Assembly (NCBI GenBank): GCA_947259305.1
Contig: CAMYML010000031.1
Coordinates: 1-33,076 of the forward strand
Length of the DNA: 33,076 nucleotides
Direction of reading: 5' to 3'
Origin: an uncultured Gammaproteobacteria bacterium
GTDB taxonomy: Bacteria; Pseudomonadota; Gammaproteobacteria; GCA-001735895
The position numbers and the translations under genes are program-made. The notes under the pieces are model-generated. The model searched no databases and was not told the origin of the DNA. It saw nothing but the letters and a program-made list of their open reading frames with translations. Below, piece by piece: positions 130 through 29,686 of the stretch. Positions within the stretch are counted from its first letter, which is position 1, and each line of letters starts with the position of its first letter.

Positions 130-435
130 CTAATCTGTCTTCTCTTCGGGCAGCTTGGCCTTACCACCCGCGTCCAGCAAGCGGCGCATCAACACCAACG
201 CCAAAGCGGTCGCGGATACCGCCACCACTATGCCGGTAATTACCATCGCCTGGGGCACAGGATCCGGCGTCGACTGGGTGCGAGTCGCCAGTGCAATCAG
301 CAGCAGAAAGACACCGCTGCCCATCACGTTTATCGCCAGAATCTTGCGTAACAGGTGAAGCTGAATAATGAGCGCGTAGAGTCCGAGGATAAACAAGGCA
401 ATCCCGGTCAGCGCATAGAAAAAAGCGGTGGTCAT
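130..435 (-). CDS. mnhC: Na+/H+ antiporter subunit C (NuoK-like)
   Basis: This 101-residue protein has three predicted membrane helices (about residues 4-24, 28-50 and 64-86). The conserved stretch DPVPQAMVITGIVVAVSATA at residues 58-77 is the hallmark of MnhC/MrpC, which is homologous to complex I NuoK and helps form the ion path of the multisubunit antiporter in the inner membrane. The ATG at 435 overlaps the TGA of the subunit B gene in an ATGA junction, which fixes the start and implies translational coupling. A longer reading of the frame to about 897 lies inside the subunit B gene and is not used. The C-terminus is short, charged and probably cytoplasmic. Confidence 0.93.
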   Translation of the reverse strand: MTTAFFYALTGIALFILGLYALIIQLHLLRKILAINVMGSGVFLLLIALATRTQSTPDPVPQAMVITGIVVAVSATALALVLMRRLLDAGGKAKLPEEKTD

Positions 436-4597: not shown

Positions 4598-6880
4598 ATG
4601 TCCTATTTTCCGAGAAATAAACTTCCAGTCCCGGTTGCAGGCAGACCTTTATATAAATGTCATTTCGGCCTGTTTCTGGTTCTGCTCCTGATCACATCGC
4701 CCGTCTTCGCCGAACGTCCAGCGATCGGCCTGGCGTTGTCCGGCGGCGGCGCCAAGGGCAGCGCTCATATAGCCGTGCTTGAATTGCTGGAAGCAAACCA
4801 CATTCCGGTCGACTACATAGCGGGCACAAGTATTGGCGCTTACGTGGGTGGTCTGTATGCGCTCGGTTACAGCGCTGCCGAAATCAAAAAGATAATGTAT
4901 GAGGCCGATCTCGAACGTGGTTTTTCGGACACGATCGACCGGCAGGACCTGCCTTACCGGGCCAAGCAACAGAAAGACAGGTTCAATGTTCCAGTTGAAA
5001 TTGGATTTCGCGCCGGCAAAGTCCGATTGCCTGGCGGTCTGCTGTTTGGACAGACTATGTCATCTATTTATCGCAGCTCAGTCGGAAATGTAGCAAATTT
5101 TGATAGCTTCGATGATCTGCCCATCCCGTTTCGCTCGGTCGCGACAGACCTTGCCACCGGGCATACCGTGGTCCTGGCTAGCGGCAACCTGGTCAAGTCA
5201 ATGCAGGCCTCGTCGGCGGTTCCCGGAGCCCTGGTTCCCGTCGAGCTGGAGGGCAAATATCTGGTGGATGGAGGTTTGTCTGAAAATCTGCCTATTAGCC
5301 AGGTAAAACAAATGGGCGCCGATATTATCATCGCGGTCGACATCAGTTCGCCGCTACAGGATAAAGAGGCCCTTGGCAACAGCATCTCGGTATTACAACA
5401 GCTCTCAAAGTTTCTCACCCTGCAAAATATCGAGAGTCAGAAAGAATTACTTTCCAGCGACGATATTTATATTCGTCCCGATGTCAGCCAACTGAGCACC
5501 ACCGATTTCGATGCTCTGCCAAAAGCCTTCGAAGCGGGTAAATTAGCAGCCCAACTTCGGCTGGATGAGCTACGAAAGTTGAGTATCGATTCCGCTGAGT
5601 ATCGGCAGTACCGCGAACTCAAACGGGAAAAACTCGACCTCATCAAGCGTGCCGGCAGGCAACCGGTGGTTAAGGTCATTCTGTCGAACCGCTCCAGCGT
5701 GAACGATAAATTCCTGACGACAGTCCTCGGGATTTCAGACGGCTCGTATGTTTCCGAAGATGAGCTTGCAGCGGCCGTAAACCGGCTCTACGCACTGGAC
5801 CGTTTCGAACGTGTCGATGCAGAATTTGAATTGCGCAAAGAAGGCAAAGTATTGAAAGTTGATGCCAGCGAAAAATCCTGGGGCCCCAATCACTTCGAGA
5901 TGGGGTTAGGGTGGGAAGACGACTTTACCCTGGATTCGGTTATCAATCTCGACTTTGCCTATATCAGAAAAAACATTACCGACAATGATGGTGAGTGGCG
6001 CAGCGAAATTGGATTAGGCACCAATAAGAGTTTCGCCAGTGAGGTTCATTTACCGCTGGGTGACGCGCAGCTTTGGTATCACTCCGCGTCATACGAGTAC
6101 CAGAACGAAAGCCGTGATTATTTTATTAGTAATCGACCGGCAGTCTTCTTCAAATTCGATATCCATCGGGTAGATTTAAGCATCGGCTACAATTTGCAGA
6201 ACGAGGGCGTCATCGAGACCGGCCTCACTTTTGCAAAGGCCGATTACGACAACGAGCTGTCGGTGCAGGATGATCTGCGCTACGACAGCCCGGGCATTTT
6301 CCTGACCTACGGCTTCGACACACTCGATCGGCGCAGCTTTCCAAGCCGGGGGGATCGCATTACCCTGAGCATTATTCATTGGCAGGAAGATGTTCGCGGA
6401 GATCTGATAACCGGCGCGGAATCGATCGCAGACACTTACCGCAGCACCCAGTACCTCGCGGACTGGAAAACCGCGACCAGCCTGGGCGGTCATGGCCTGG
6501 TCGGCAAGCTGTCATTTGCCTATACAGATAGCGAATCCGAGCAGAGTATTCATTATTCTCAGCTCGGTGGTTTCCTCAACCTGTCCGGCTACCATAAGAA
6601 CGCGCTGATAGGTAACAGCAAGGTCTTCGCCGCGCTCGCCTACCAGTATGACCTGGGGAAAAGCCTGCTGGGTTTAACCGGCTTTCCAGTCTATATCGGG
6701 GTTAGCATCGAATCCGGTAACGTGTGGCTAATCGACGAGTCAGTCAAATTCGATGACCTTATTCCCGCCGGCAGCATTTTTCTAAGTACCGACAGCAAGC
6801 TCGGACCTATCGCGCTGGGAATAGGTTTCGCGGACGGCGACAATAATTCAGTTTACTTTTATCTGGGCAAAAATATCTAG
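4598..6880 (+). CDS. Patatin-like phospholipase fused to outer-membrane beta-barrel (PlpD-type, type Vd secretion)
   Basis: The 760-residue protein begins with a signal peptide (hydrophobic about 22-36, cleavage near VFA-E). The patatin domain, about 41-330, has the oxyanion GGGAKG at 49-54, the nucleophile elbow GTSIG at 76-80 with Ser78, and the DGG dyad at 224-226 with Asp224, so all catalytic residues are present. A POTRA-like segment follows (about 352-425: KVILSNRSSVNDKFL, LAAAVNRLYALDRFERVDA). A bacterial surface antigen (BamA/Omp85-like) barrel then runs to the end (VYFYLGKNI). This order matches PlpD of Pseudomonas, a phospholipase that carries its own transporter; it may be released or stay displayed. 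It is monocistronic and convergent with the LEA14-like gene. Substrate is unknown. Confidence 0.92.
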   Translation: MSYFPRNKLPVPVAGRPLYKCHFGLFLVLLLITSPVFAERPAIGLALSGGGAKGSAHIAVLELLEANHIPVDYIAGTSIGAYVGGLYALGYSAAEIKKIMYEADLERGFSDTIDRQDLPYRAKQQKDRFNVPVEIGFRAGKVRLPGGLLFGQTMSSIYRSSVGNVANFDSFDDLPIPFRSVATDLATGHTVVLASGNLVKSMQASSAVPGALVPVELEGKYLVDGGLSENLPISQVKQMGADIIIAVDISSPLQDKEALGNSISVLQQLSKFLTLQNIESQKELLSSDDIYIRPDVSQLSTTDFDALPKAFEAGKLAAQLRLDELRKLSIDSAEYRQYRELKREKLDLIKRAGRQPVVKVILSNRSSVNDKFLTTVLGISDGSYVSEDELAAAVNRLYALDRFERVDAEFELRKEGKVLKVDASEKSWGPNHFEMGLGWEDDFTLDSVINLDFAYIRKNITDNDGEWRSEIGLGTNKSFASEVHLPLGDAQLWYHSASYEYQNESRDYFISNRPAVFFKFDIHRVDLSIGYNLQNEGVIETGLTFAKADYDNELSVQDDLRYDSPGIFLTYGFDTLDRRSFPSRGDRITLSIIHWQEDVRGDLITGAESIADTYRSTQYLADWKTATSLGGHGLVGKLSFAYTDSESEQSIHYSQLGGFLNLSGYHKNALIGNSKVFAALAYQYDLGKSLLGLTGFPVYIGVSIESGNVWLIDESVKFDDLIPAGSIFLSTDSKLGPIALGIGFADGDNNSVYFYLGKNI

Positions 6881-25521: not shown

Positions 25522-25551
25522 TTGTATAAATAAAAATATATCGGATAGAAT
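25522..25551 (+). promoter_or_regulatory. Candidate promoter of the MerR-type regulator
   Basis: TTGTAT (25522-25527) and TAGAAT (25546-25551) are separated by 18 bases in an AT-rich stretch. TAGACA elements follow at 25555-25560 and 25608-25613, the same element found in the operators at 26821 and 29291. This may reflect autoregulation. The hexamers match the sigma-70 consensus only moderately. Confidence 0.4.
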
Positions 25552-25626
25552 ACCTAGACAAAACCTGGTATCGAAGGCTCGTTACCGCTCGAGTGGTTAA
25601 TAAATAGTAGACACAACGCCCTTTTC

Positions 25627-26820: not shown

Positions 26821-26849
26821 TTGACATAGACTATATATAGACATATATT
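26821..26849 (+). promoter_or_regulatory. Sigma-70 promoter with 11-bp direct repeats, upstream of HiPIP
   Basis: TTGACA (26821-26826, perfect consensus) and TATATT (26844-26849) are separated by exactly 17 bases. The spacer holds TAGACTATATA and TAGACATATAT, direct repeats with an 11-base step (26827 and 26838). Another TAGACA is at 26890-26895. Operators of CarH-type MerR regulators use 11-bp direct repeats near the -35 box, so the neighbouring regulator is the likely binder. It drives the HiPIP gene, whose start is 78 bases downstream of the -10 box. Confidence 0.7.
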
Positions 26850-26926
26850 CCCTCTCAGACGTATTTATAGAAATTTAGTAAACTTTATTTAGACATTTAC
26901 TTGAGAGCACCTGCCAGGAGTGACTA

Positions 26927-27229
26927 ATGAAAAAACTGACTCGAAGAGATTTACTAGGCCTGTCGGCGGTGGCTATCGTCGCCAGTCCGGCGCTCGCCCT
27001 GACCAGCCGACTTGCCTTTGCAGCCGATGCGCCCAGGCTTGACCCGAACGATGCACAGGCCAGCGCGCTTGCCTACACGCACCAGTCAGCAAAAGCCGGC
27101 AGCAACTGTGCCAACTGCCAATTGTACTCCGCTGGTGCCGGCGCGGCCTGGGGTCCATGCGCGATATTTCCAGGCAAGCAGGTTGCCGGCGCGGGCTGGT
27201 GTAGCGCCTGGGTGAAGCGGGCTGGATAG
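26927..27229 (+). CDS. High-potential iron-sulfur protein (HiPIP), Tat-exported
   Basis: The 100-residue precursor has a twin-arginine signal (KKLTRRDLLGLSAV) with likely cleavage after AFA near residue 32. The mature part has the HiPIP cysteine pattern Cys61-x2-Cys64, Cys78 and Cys92 (NCANCQLYS, WGPCAIFPGK, WCSAW), binding one [4Fe-4S] cluster. HiPIPs are periplasmic one-electron carriers, in purple bacteria to the reaction centre and elsewhere to cytochrome oxidase. AGGAG lies seven bases before the ATG. It follows a strong promoter with 11-bp repeats. The next gene begins 56 bases downstream. Confidence 0.95.
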   Translation: MKKLTRRDLLGLSAVAIVASPALALTSRLAFAADAPRLDPNDAQASALAYTHQSAKAGSNCANCQLYSAGAGAAWGPCAIFPGKQVAGAGWCSAWVKRAG

Positions 27230-27285: not shown

Positions 27286-27462
27286 ATGGAAAACGACATA
27301 GCGTTAATGGCCACCGGTTACGTCTTTGCCCGCCTCGGCATTTTGGCGGCGTTTGGCTACCTTATCTACCGGGTTTTGGGCCGCAAACCGGCCACGACTC
27401 GGGTCAGAACGCAGAGTAACTACGCGACCGAGCGCCTGCACAGCAGCCGCTTCGATCGTTAA
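27286..27462 (+). CDS. 58-residue single-helix membrane protein after HiPIP
   Basis: Reading from ATG at 27286 gives MENDIALMATGYVFARLGIL, then AAFGYLIYRVLGRK, then a basic and polar tail ending RFDR. One membrane helix (about 10-33) is expected. GAGGAAAG lies five bases upstream, a strong ribosome binding site. It is 56 bases after HiPIP with no terminator between, so the two are likely co-transcribed. Function is unknown; it may anchor or hand over electrons from HiPIP, but there is no ligand motif. Confidence 0.75.
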   Translation: MENDIALMATGYVFARLGILAAFGYLIYRVLGRKPATTRVRTQSNYATERLHSSRFDR

Positions 27463-27468
27463 CTAATA

Positions 27469-27547
27469 CGTCTCCGCCGGTATTCCGCTTCCCGCTCCTG
27501 GCAGCCTGGCTTCACCAGGCTGCTGATCCAGATACCGGCGGTAGACG
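27469..27547. repeat. Nested inverted repeat after the HiPIP operon
   Basis: The outer arms CGTCTCCGCCGGTAT (27469-27483) and ATACCGGCGG-T-AGACG (27532-27547) pair over 15 bases with one bulged T. Inside is a second hairpin GCAGCCTGG / CCAGGCTGC (27501-27509 with 27515-27523) with a five-base loop. No T-run follows. It may be a transcript-end or RNA-stabilising structure, or a mobile-element-like palindrome. Confidence 0.85.
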
Positions 27548-27703
27548 TTCCACTAACTCATCGGTCTAGTTTTCACTCGCCACCATATTCTCACCCCACA
27601 GTCGTAACGATCCCTCAAGGCTCCGACCTCTCATGCACTCGAAACCGCAGTTCATCTCGCGTAAAATTTATTCGGACATGCTTACTAGCCGACGGATTTC
27701 ACC

Positions 27704-29275
27704 TTGATTAACGCCAATAAGAAAGCACGCTTCCACTCGCTTCGTCTGATCCTCGGTGATCAGCTAAACGCTCGACACAGCTGGTTTATGCAAAAGAACG
27801 CGGGTGTTTTATACGTCATTGGCGAGATGAAGCAGGAGGCGACTTACGTCAAGCACCACGCACAAAAACTCTGCGCCTTTTTTGCTGCAATGGAAGCCTT
27901 CGCGAGCCTTATCGACGCCATGGGCCACAACATAGTTCATTTGACGCTCGAGGACACGGTCAAGTGCAACAATCTTTCAGACCTGGTCGCGTCGCTTTGC
28001 GATCACTACCAGGTGACACGTTTCGAGTACCAGTCTCCGGACGAGTATCGATTGCGGCAGCAACTGCGTTCTCTCGAGATCCCAGACTCGATATCGGTGC
28101 AGGAATTCGACAGCGAGCACTTCCTGCTGCCAAAGGCAGAATTCGAGCGGTATCTTACGCCAGGAAGACACAATCGCATGGAATCGTTTTATCGAAAAAT
28201 GCGCAAACGCCTCAACCTGCTGCTGGACGGGGATCAACCGCAGGGCGGCCAATGGAACTATGACAGTGAAAATCGAAACAGGCTGCGGCCGGCTGATTTA
28301 GACGAGATTCCAGCCCCACTGGTTTTCGATAACGACGTTGAACCATTCCTGCAACGCATCGACAAACACGGTATCGAACATTTCGGCGAGCGCCGCAGGT
28401 CTCTGCCCTGGCCGATAAACCGGGCGCAGGCGCTTGAACTGCTGGCATATTTTTGTCAGCACTGCCTGCCGAGATTCGGTCGCTTTCAGGATGCGATGAC
28501 CTGCCAGCACGAACACCAGTGGAGCCTTTACCACTCGCGACTGTCGTTTGCGCTCAACAGTAAAATTTTGCACCCGATGGAAGTGATCGAGGCCGCGATA
28601 CAGCGCTACCAGGGCAGCGACAAAGAGATTTCTCTTGCGCAGATCGAGGGTTTTGTGCGCCAGATCATCGGCTGGCGAGAATACGTGCGCGCCGTTTACT
28701 GGATCAATATGCCCGGCTATGCCCAACTCAATCACCTTGGGGCTAAGCGCGACCTGCCCGCCTCTTTCTGGCATGGGGAAACTCGAATGAATTGCATGCG
28801 CCAGGCAATCGGGCAATCGCTAGACTTTGCCTACGCGCACCATATTCAACGCCTGATGGTCACCGGAAATTTCTGTCTCCTGGCAGGCATCGACCCGGCA
28901 CAGGTCGACGCCTGGTATCTGGGCGTGTACCTGGACGCCATAGAGTGGGTGGAAATGCCCAATACCAGGGGCATGAGCCAGTTTGCGGACGGCGGCCTGA
29001 TCGCCACCAAACCCTATGCCGCGGGCGGTAACTACATCAACCGGATGAGCGATTACTGCAAACACTGTCATTACGACGTTAAACAAAAATCGACCGATTC
29101 GGCCTGCCCGTTTAACAGCCTCTACTGGAGCTTCATGATCCGCCACCGCGAAAAACTCGCCACCAATCCGCGTATTGGAATGATTTACGGCAGCTGGGAC
29201 AGGCAAAACCAGCCAGAGCGAGAAGCAACGCTGGCGCGCGCAGACTGGTGTCAAAAAAATCTGGATATTCTATAA
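27704..29275 (+). CDS. phrB: Iron-sulfur cryptochrome/photolyase (FeS-BCP, PhrB type)
   Basis: The 523-residue protein has the N-terminal LRLILGDQLN of the photolyase-like domain and the C-terminal FAD domain with EWVEMPNTRGMSQFADGG, KPYAAGGNYINRM and SDYCKHC. The four cluster cysteines are Cys364, Cys452, Cys455 and Cys468. Their spacing of 88, 3 and 13 equals that of Agrobacterium PhrB (350, 438, 441, 454). PhrB repairs (6-4) photoproducts with light. The start is TTG at 27704, since a TAG lies six codons upstream and the conserved domain begins at residue 13. It is the main sign of a light-response function in this block. Confidence 0.93.
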   Translation: MINANKKARFHSLRLILGDQLNARHSWFMQKNAGVLYVIGEMKQEATYVKHHAQKLCAFFAAMEAFASLIDAMGHNIVHLTLEDTVKCNNLSDLVASLCDHYQVTRFEYQSPDEYRLRQQLRSLEIPDSISVQEFDSEHFLLPKAEFERYLTPGRHNRMESFYRKMRKRLNLLLDGDQPQGGQWNYDSENRNRLRPADLDEIPAPLVFDNDVEPFLQRIDKHGIEHFGERRRSLPWPINRAQALELLAYFCQHCLPRFGRFQDAMTCQHEHQWSLYHSRLSFALNSKILHPMEVIEAAIQRYQGSDKEISLAQIEGFVRQIIGWREYVRAVYWINMPGYAQLNHLGAKRDLPASFWHGETRMNCMRQAIGQSLDFAYAHHIQRLMVTGNFCLLAGIDPAQVDAWYLGVYLDAIEWVEMPNTRGMSQFADGGLIATKPYAAGGNYINRMSDYCKHCHYDVKQKSTDSACPFNSLYWSFMIRHREKLATNPRIGMIYGSWDRQNQPEREATLARADWCQKNLDIL

Positions 29276-29290
29276 AATAAATTACCTCTC

Positions 29291-29334
29291 TTGTCTATTT
29301 ATTGTCTAATATTTTTTAGATCCAAACTAGACAA
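29291..29334 (+). promoter_or_regulatory. Operator-like 11-bp repeats with inverted arm, before 29372
   Basis: TTGTCTA occurs at 29291-29297 and 29302-29308, an exact 11-base step. Its complement TAGACAA is at 29328-29334. TAGACA is the element also repeated at 11 bases in the HiPIP promoter. A TATACA box at 29342-29347 could be the -10 region. The site lies between the photolyase and the 104-residue membrane protein. Confidence 0.65.
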
Positions 29335-29371
29335 AGCATCGTATACATTGCTCCTCATCGGAGATAATGGC

Positions 29372-29686
29372 ATGCAACAGCAACTCGAATTGACGTGGAA
29401 CGCAGTAATGGACTATCGCTACAACCCACTAAAATACATGGATCTCGCTTCGCGGCACTACGTAATGCAGGTACTTGCATGGATGTGGAGCATGATTTTC
29501 TCAGTTTCTTTCCTGTCCATCTATTACTTCAGCTATGTCTGGCTAGGTCACCTGCTGATTATTGCCGGCGTGTTCTTTACGATCACGATATTCAAACGGG
29601 CGGAATCGAGACGCGAGAGACTGGCACCGGTGCCGATGTTGAGCAGCGCTTCGAAATGCGTCTGGCAAATGGACCGCGAAGCCTGA
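29372..29686 (+). CDS. Small membrane protein of unknown function
   Basis: The 104-residue protein has two hydrophobic helices (about 26-48 and 50-70) and basic flanks (FKRAESRRERLAP). GGAG lies eight or nine bases before the ATG at 29372; an in-frame upstream start at 29291 would translate through the operator and is not used. It is 96 bases after the photolyase stop but has its own repeat-type operator region. I do not know the family. By position it belongs to the light-linked block. Confidence 0.75.
   Translation: MQQQLELTWNAVMDYRYNPLKYMDLASRHYVMQVLAWMWSMIFSVSFLSIYYFSYVWLGHLLIIAGVFFTITIFKRAESRRERLAPVPMLSSASKCVWQMDREA

Follow-up and report, generated by a model that had tools for sequence, protein, structure and literature searches.

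The window, the whole stretch of DNA analysed here (33,076 nucleotides from an uncultured gammaproteobacterium), carries a gene for a MerR-family regulator (merR) followed by hip, which encodes a high-potential iron-sulfur protein (HiPIP), by genes for a small protein and a deoxyribodipyrimidine photolyase-related protein (DPRP), and by a gene starting at 29372 (Table 1). HiPIPs are electron carriers best known from phototrophs.

Table 1. Genes, promoter elements and candidate operator copies of the merR-hip cluster, in window coordinates
Feature	Position	Strand	Evidence or remark
Possible merR -10, TAGAAT	25546..25551	+	By eye, just 5' of box 1; similar words before the box in several relatives, by eye
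TAGACA box 1, merR upstream region	25555..25560	+	One of two boxes 52-54 bp apart in 9/10 genus regions
TAGACA box 2, merR upstream region	25608..25613	+	53 bp from box 1
merR, MerR-family regulator gene, 330 aa	25627..26619	+	Pfam MerR_1 4.7e-17
MerR protein domains: HTH, residues 21-86; Rossmann-like, 112-223; C-terminal CECPxHL helical, 248-321			Pfam, AlphaFold, alignments
hip P1, sigma-70 type, TTGACA-N17-TATATT	26821..26849	+	11/12 consensus positions; aligned counterparts in G016 and G003
Reported operator copy (candidate), TAGACT-N5-TAGACA	26827..26843	+	Sequence pattern; fills the P1 spacer
Second, best-conserved operator copy (candidate), TAAACT-N5-TAGACA	26879..26895	+	8 invariant alignment columns; 21-nt repeat
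Place of the relatives' ECF-type motif; window TAAAC-N17-TTGAG, CGTA absent	26879..26905	+	Alignment with relatives
hip, HiPIP, 100 aa, Tat-like leader	26927..27229	+	Pfam HIPIP 8.8e-18; leader by eye
Conserved 58-aa small protein	27286..27462	+	tblastn matches in G005, G016, G030, G029, G025, G014
DPRP	27704..29275	+	Pfam DPRP 1.1e-66
Operator copy (candidate), TAGACA-N5-TAGACA, upstream of the 29372 gene	29292..29308	-	Sequence pattern
ECF-type motif, AGATC-N17-CGTAT	29318..29344	+	TAGACA box 29328-29333 in spacer
104-aa gene, no Pfam family	29372..29686	+	68-88% identity in G005, G030, G029, G025; 35% in G016

Homologues of the MerR protein were found among 115 related genomes in ten genomes of the genus, that of the window included (54-80% identity outside the window), and as six more distant full-length proteins with 35-39% identity. 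The gene hip lies beside merR in eight of the ten genus genomes (G000, G003, G005, G014, G016, G025, G029 and G030), split over two frames in G005; it was not found at merR in G018, and the contig of G028 ends early. The DPRP gene is present at merR in G000, G016, G029 and G030, and adjoins merR in G083 and G065, which belong to other families; the 16-kb stretches of G003 and G005 lack it, and the remaining four genus contigs are short. Because the genus genomes are related, counts across the genus are not independent. A scan of named genomes, with CECPxHL as one of two search seeds, gave 80 loci, the best 80 of at least 583 matches, mainly from gamma- and betaproteobacteria and Verrucomicrobia. 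Among these best 80, in which ORFs were called mechanically and clustered, hip was present at eight loci, of which L084 and L085 belong to the genus, and photolyase-type ORFs at seven, and recurring ORFs, named by eye, were ECF-sigma-like, carotenoid, fasciclin, lipocalin, SDR and CFA-synthase-like; the one non-genus hip checked, that of L127, matched Pfam at 9.6e-25.

The earlier note had described a near-perfect sigma-70 promoter upstream of hip, and its elements were found at every coordinate given, with TTGACA at 26821-26826, TATATT at 26844-26849 and a spacer of 17 bases. At the aligned place G016 has TTGACA-N17-TATATT and G003 has TTGACG-N17-TATTAT. The 11-bp direct repeats said to fill the spacer, TAGACTATATA (26827-26837) and TAGACATATAT (26838-26848), stood up in part: the 11-bp step is real, but in register only five of the 11 positions, TAGAC, are equal, the remainder being alternating A/T out of phase, so that what the note called direct repeats is TAGAC recurring at a step of 11 bp. 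The 17-bp spacer itself, TAGACTATATATAGACA, is exactly one unit TAGACT-N5-TAGACA.

A second such unit lies 52 bp downstream of the reported copy and is 81% identical to it over 21 nt. When the eight merR-linked hip upstream stretches were aligned, eight columns were invariant, all of them within T.AAC-N6-T.GAC (26879-26894 of the window), and by this alignment the reported copy is less conserved than the second. At the place of the reported copy, TAGACA comes immediately after the -35 box in G016 and G003; in the window, G016 and G005 a pair precedes the second copy by exactly 52 bp. A TnnACA step-11 pair with at most one mismatch was present in all eight merR-linked hip upstream regions of the genus (shuffle mean 0.86, maximum 4), but the same loose score at step 13 was also reached in seven of the eight, these regions being AT-rich, and the alignment is therefore the better evidence at hip. 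Among hip matches not beside merR, 23 of 24 were scanned (one with only 17 bp) and three had a pair (G003, G040 and G037), G003 and G040 being genomes that carry a merR homologue. Upstream of the 29372 gene, a step-11 pair was found in five of six regions (shuffle mean 0.27, maximum 2); the copy at 29292-29308 is strict at the same place in G016 and has variant half-sites in G030 and G029, clear boxes were seen in neither G005 nor G025, and the pair of G005 is weak and lies elsewhere.

The search for TAGAC at an 11-bp step that the earlier note had proposed, genome-wide and in relatives, did not favour the exact pair. In the 4,290,584-base assembly, TAGACN6TAGAC occurs at two sites, 26827 (+) and 29308 (-), each within a promoter region of the merR-hip cluster; the reversed-pattern control gave four sites in the same assembly, so that the pair is not enriched genome-wide and it is its placement, not its number, that is of note. 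Across 31 genus genomes the strict pair has 20 sites, spread over 14 of them, and nearly all of the genomes have more sites of the reversed control. Only three of these 20 sites lie at the merR-hip cluster, two in the window genome and one in G016 upstream of the 29372 homologue, which rules out the exact pair as a conserved unit; at hip it is specific to the window among the 31 genomes. Lack of conservation in relatives, which the note had named as grounds against its proposal, thus applies to the exact TAGAC pair at hip and not to the TnnACA class: the conserved form, judged from the sequences compared, is the relaxed TnnACA-N5-TnnACA. Strict TnRACA pairs were likewise not above their reversed controls genome-wide (6 against 8 and 11 against 11), and a genome-wide regulon drawn from such pairs was set aside; of ten distinct strict sites outside the window eight were inspected, seven lying inside ORFs and one straddling an ORF start. 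Far from the cluster, G005 (L202, G005:C18:10384-10399), a genome with merR, has a strict TAGAC pair just 5' of a start codon, a pair that may mark a further target.

The 80 named-genome loci, the best 80 of at least 583 matches, were scanned over 250 bp upstream of merR (only 5 bp at L135 and 139 bp at L153). Same-strand TnnACA pairs peaked sharply at step 11 in these best 80, with 49 pairs at 35 loci against 0.9 in shuffles, the next distances being 42 (13 pairs) and 52 and 53 (eight each). Under the strict form TnRACA, 33 pairs at 27 of the 80 loci were at step 11, and steps 8, 9, 10, 12, 13, 14 and 15 had 0, 3, 1, 2, 0, 1 and 2 pairs. Away from the merR upstream regions, the same 80 loci showed no step-11 excess (9, against 4, 7, 6, 10, 2, 2 and 6 at other steps). 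Within the genus, six of ten merR upstream regions had a step-11 pair with at most one mismatch (shuffle mean 0.55, maximum 4); the sole step-11 pair of the window there is a weak TTAATA-N5-TAGACA, and single TnRACA boxes 52-54 bp apart occur in nine of the ten regions, 53 bp apart in the window. The link that the earlier note had drawn between the repeat and the MerR gene upstream is supported by these pairs upstream of merR homologues and by those at merR-linked hip. As separate observations, step-11 pairs also lie 5' of an ECF-sigma-like ORF and a fasciclin-like ORF close to merR (L116 near 440 and L131 near 4815), and in L079 (G079), upstream of 6847, TAGACA-N5-TAGACA followed 12 bp on by TGGACA lies 5' of a MerR-type gene without the CECP motif.

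The second copy at hip coincides with a further promoter-like element. TGA(A/T)C-N17-CGTA spans it in six of the eight merR-linked hip upstream regions (shuffle mean 0.01), and G029 has AAATC-N17-CGTAT; the sigma-E motif of Vibrio cholerae is given as TGATC-N16-18-CGTAW in the part of PMC5241685 available to us. The window has TAAAC-N17-TTGAG at this place, so that the box pair is still there but the ECF-type promoter appears to be lost. Upstream of the 29372 homologues the motif reads TGATC-N17-CGTAT in G030, TGATC-N17-CGTAC in G016 and TAATC-N17-CGTAT in G029, with the strict form in two of six regions. Upstream of merR it was found in none of ten genus regions and in none of the 80 other loci (the best 80 of at least 583). 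Away from the merR-hip cluster, the window genome encodes an ECF sigma factor directly followed by chrR (TIGR02451, 182 bits against a cut-off of 124.5) and, one ORF on in the same direction, a DNA photolyase; the sigma-70 and ChrR cupin domains were found in adjacent ORFs. Two divergent TGATC-N17-CGTA sites lie at the start of this ECF sigma gene, one of them inside its mechanically called first codons. TGATC-N16-18-CGTAW has 70 matches genome-wide against three for the reversed word, which is a poor control, and the chrR locus is the sole one inspected among the 70.

The AlphaFold model of the MerR protein (pLDDT 88.2) comprises the HTH, five alternating strands and helices over residues 112-223, and then helices at 248-256, 265-289 and 291-321; the pTM of 0.53 makes the placement of the domains uncertain. 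The best solved relatives of the HTH (hmmsearch) were CarH (5c8d, 2.9e-14; 3whp, 4.5e-14) and 2jml (1.1e-11), listed as a DNA-binding domain and presumably that of CarA, and the NCBIfam CarH model matched the HTH only, with 45.8 bits against a cut-off of 400. The earlier note had described a cobalamin-like but motif-less domain, and this holds as far as no cobalamin domain was detected: the B12-binding family was matched at 0.01 by none of the 81 members (80 of them the best of at least 583), for which nine families were matched in all. The cobalamin likeness itself did not reach significance. Among 41 middle domains with E up to 10, AppA_SCHIC (0.033), B12-binding (0.045) and Response_reg (0.11) were each matched by a single member and AcnX by four, at best 0.0033; against PDB profiles all matches were non-significant, glutaredoxin being first (0.19) and receivers following at 0.24-0.96, among them 1s8n, which we take to be a receiver. 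The middle domain is thus predicted to have a Rossmann-type fold, with non-significant similarity to cobalamin-type and receiver-type domains. A further C-terminal domain with conserved Cys and His residues, missed by the earlier note, had no family match below 0.02 (best 0.35 and 0.023). C263, H268 and C286 are invariant in the 81 members (80 being the best of at least 583) and C265 and H297 are conserved in at least 90%; all five are invariant in a 14-sequence alignment drawn from 16 full-length homologues found by whole-protein similarity, and so not seeded by CECPxHL. As judged from these profile searches, the sensing half of the MerR protein appears to belong to no described family.

The claim that direct repeats at an 11-bp step have the geometry of CarH operators agrees with what has been published. 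The operator repeat of CarH (Thermus thermophilus, Bacillus megaterium) and CarA (Myxococcus xanthus) is described, in the portion of PMC9304148 available to us, as tandem 11-bp nnnnTnnACAn over the -35 and -10 elements, and CarH-type proteins with such operators are described there as repressors; half-site and step are identical to those of the merR-hip system, a likeness of sequence pattern. The MerR-type HTH is also common to both. The domain order, however, differs: in CarH it is HTH, helical B12-binding bundle and Rossmann B12 domain (as excerpted from PMC9758184), and in the MerR protein HTH, Rossmann-like domain and CECP helical domain. The B12-binding helical bundle and cobalamin-motif Rossmann domain that define CarH/LitR were not detected in the 81 members of the MerR protein family, and the presumed target in the window, unlike those of CarH and CarA, is a HiPIP/photolyase cluster. 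Because the cobalamin module was looked for and not found, the MerR protein is not classed as a CarH member; it may still act like CarH at the DNA.

Class II LitR proteins (PplR of P. putida, PmlR2 of P. mendocina) are, according to the same part of PMC9758184, B12-independent MerR-type regulators of light-induced genes that include photolyase, which resembles our reading of the MerR protein. Their published site in that source, TGTACA-N12-TGTACA, has in contrast a step of 18, and TGTACA pairs at this step occur in none of our 80 loci (the best 80 of at least 583), where looser TnnACA pairs at step 18 numbered four against 0.9 in shuffles. Nine presumed class II proteins from genomes of the same class, assigned by eye, have, again by eye, a helical-then-Rossmann order, unlike the MerR protein, and their C-terminal halves showed no detected homology to its own (hhalign probability below 1%, with a template Neff of 3.3 that limits sensitivity). 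Four of the nine have a TnnACA step-11 pair upstream, and the step is thus not special to the MerR group studied here. MlrA and BluR of E. coli are MerR-type proteins with a non-cobalamin second domain, and a model of MlrA matched the MerR protein in the HTH alone (residues 19-83). In V. cholerae, VCA0056 is a MerR-like gene that adjoins phr and acts with ChrR in the blue-light response, as far as the available part of PMC5241685, which gives no operator for it, describes it; with its ChrR/sigma-E setting it is, by description, like the window in having a MerR gene near a photolyase.

The paired boxes at hip are probably docking sites of the MerR protein encoded next door, as their sequence, conservation and linkage suggest. 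From these, the spacing, the promoter motifs and the predicted domain order we infer binding, repression and a signal, and we consider it likely, with appreciable doubt, that the MerR protein acts as a CarH-like repressor, independent of cobalamin, on a photo-oxidative stress cluster that includes hip. Its CarH/CarA-like DNA-binding domain would recognise TnnACA repeats arranged in tandem, head to tail, every 11 bp. At hip the protein would occupy both 17-bp units, which are 52 bp apart; 52-54 bp is about five helical turns, which suggests cooperation on one face of the helix. One unit fills the spacer of the sigma-70 promoter and the other lies where relatives have the ECF/ChrR-type motif, so that the protein, once bound, would keep RNA polymerase off both places. 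It would also repress its own gene and the 29372 gene. A photo-oxidative or redox signal, suggested by the neighbouring genes and the ECF motifs, would lift repression without cobalamin, through the C-terminal Cys/His domain or a partner; light control as such is argued from the same neighbours and ECF/ChrR-type motifs. More tentatively, and with more doubt than confidence, the protein might represent a widespread, undescribed CarH-like group in which a Rossmann-like domain and a Cys/His domain, the latter a direct sensor of photo-oxidative or redox stress, have replaced the cobalamin module, with direct-repeat operators nested in ChrR-type (singlet-oxygen) sigma promoters, so that the target fires only with sigma free and repressor off, and with two operators five turns apart bridged by one oligomer.

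The MerR-family HTH would also suit an activator of the classical MerR kind, which under stress would turn hip on from the downstream copy by remodelling a weak promoter whose spacer is too long. A long spacer of the 19-bp type is a feature of MerR activators, and by eye the downstream element of G016, G005 and G014 also reads as TTGAAC-N19 and then TATAAG, TATTCA or TAATAC, with TAGACA inside; the 29372 gene of the window fits the same reading (TAGATC-N19-TATACA), which gives activation some probability. However, G030 and G025 lack the preceding TTGAAC and yet fit TGA(A/T)C-N17-CGTA, the repeats are direct here and inverted in classical MerR activators, and a 17-bp spacer, as in P1, needs no MerR-type untwisting. 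The direct repeats, this spacer and the boxes over promoter elements favour CarH-type repression, as does the repression described for proteins with such operators (PMC9304148, in part), and we regard activation as unlikely.

If the conserved element were mainly an ECF (RpoE/ChrR) promoter, with TAGACA at hip a piece of promoter sequence and merR incidental, the motif in six of eight hip regions and the chrR gene in the genome would find an explanation. Yet the window lacks CGTA and keeps the TAAACT-N5-TAGACA pair, and step-11 pairs lie upstream of merR, where, as mentioned above, the motif was not found, which makes this quite improbable. An origin of the boxes by chance, from AT-rich repetition around a sigma-70 promoter that is strong, would agree with the five of 11 bases in register, the AT-rich spacer and the exact pair being neither conserved at hip nor enriched; against it stand the placement of both genome copies of TAGACN6TAGAC in the merR-hip cluster, the step-11 excess upstream of merR in the 80 loci and the 21-nt copy at a spacing of 52, and chance is hardly credible. 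Repression by a CarH-like MerR protein, our preferred reading, would provide a putative operator code and a target cluster for a group of MerR proteins whose sensor domain has no name, would tie HiPIP to a photolyase-type and ChrR-type stress setting, and suggests that CarH-type operator geometry persists without the cobalamin module. Among the papers found to name both 'high-potential iron-sulfur protein' and 'MerR', none, judged by title, dealt with merR-hip control.

Several minor observations concern the cluster and its relatives. A short BLUF photoreceptor gene on another contig of the same genome (L221, G000:C142:14955-15227) is a candidate light input; its 3.3-kb locus has no step-11 pair. 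In G003, hip beside merR looks broken (L072 near 8074), and an open hip on another contig (L037/L082, G003:C45) comes with a TATACA-N5-TAAACA pair and a match to TGATC-N17-CGTA. The merR of L070 (G016, 5875-6826) is in two frames, through a gene break or an assembly error, and L151, a record titled as a Klebsiella pneumoniae MAG, has a merR/hip pair resembling Burkholderiales loci, so its label may be wrong. Finally, a strong hairpin at 27468-27548 (-47.6 kcal/mol, z -6.9), which separates the 58-aa gene from that for DPRP, has both arms in five of six aligned genus copies, the sixth (G025) ending before the second arm, and is possibly a terminator, an attenuator or an mRNA-processing element.
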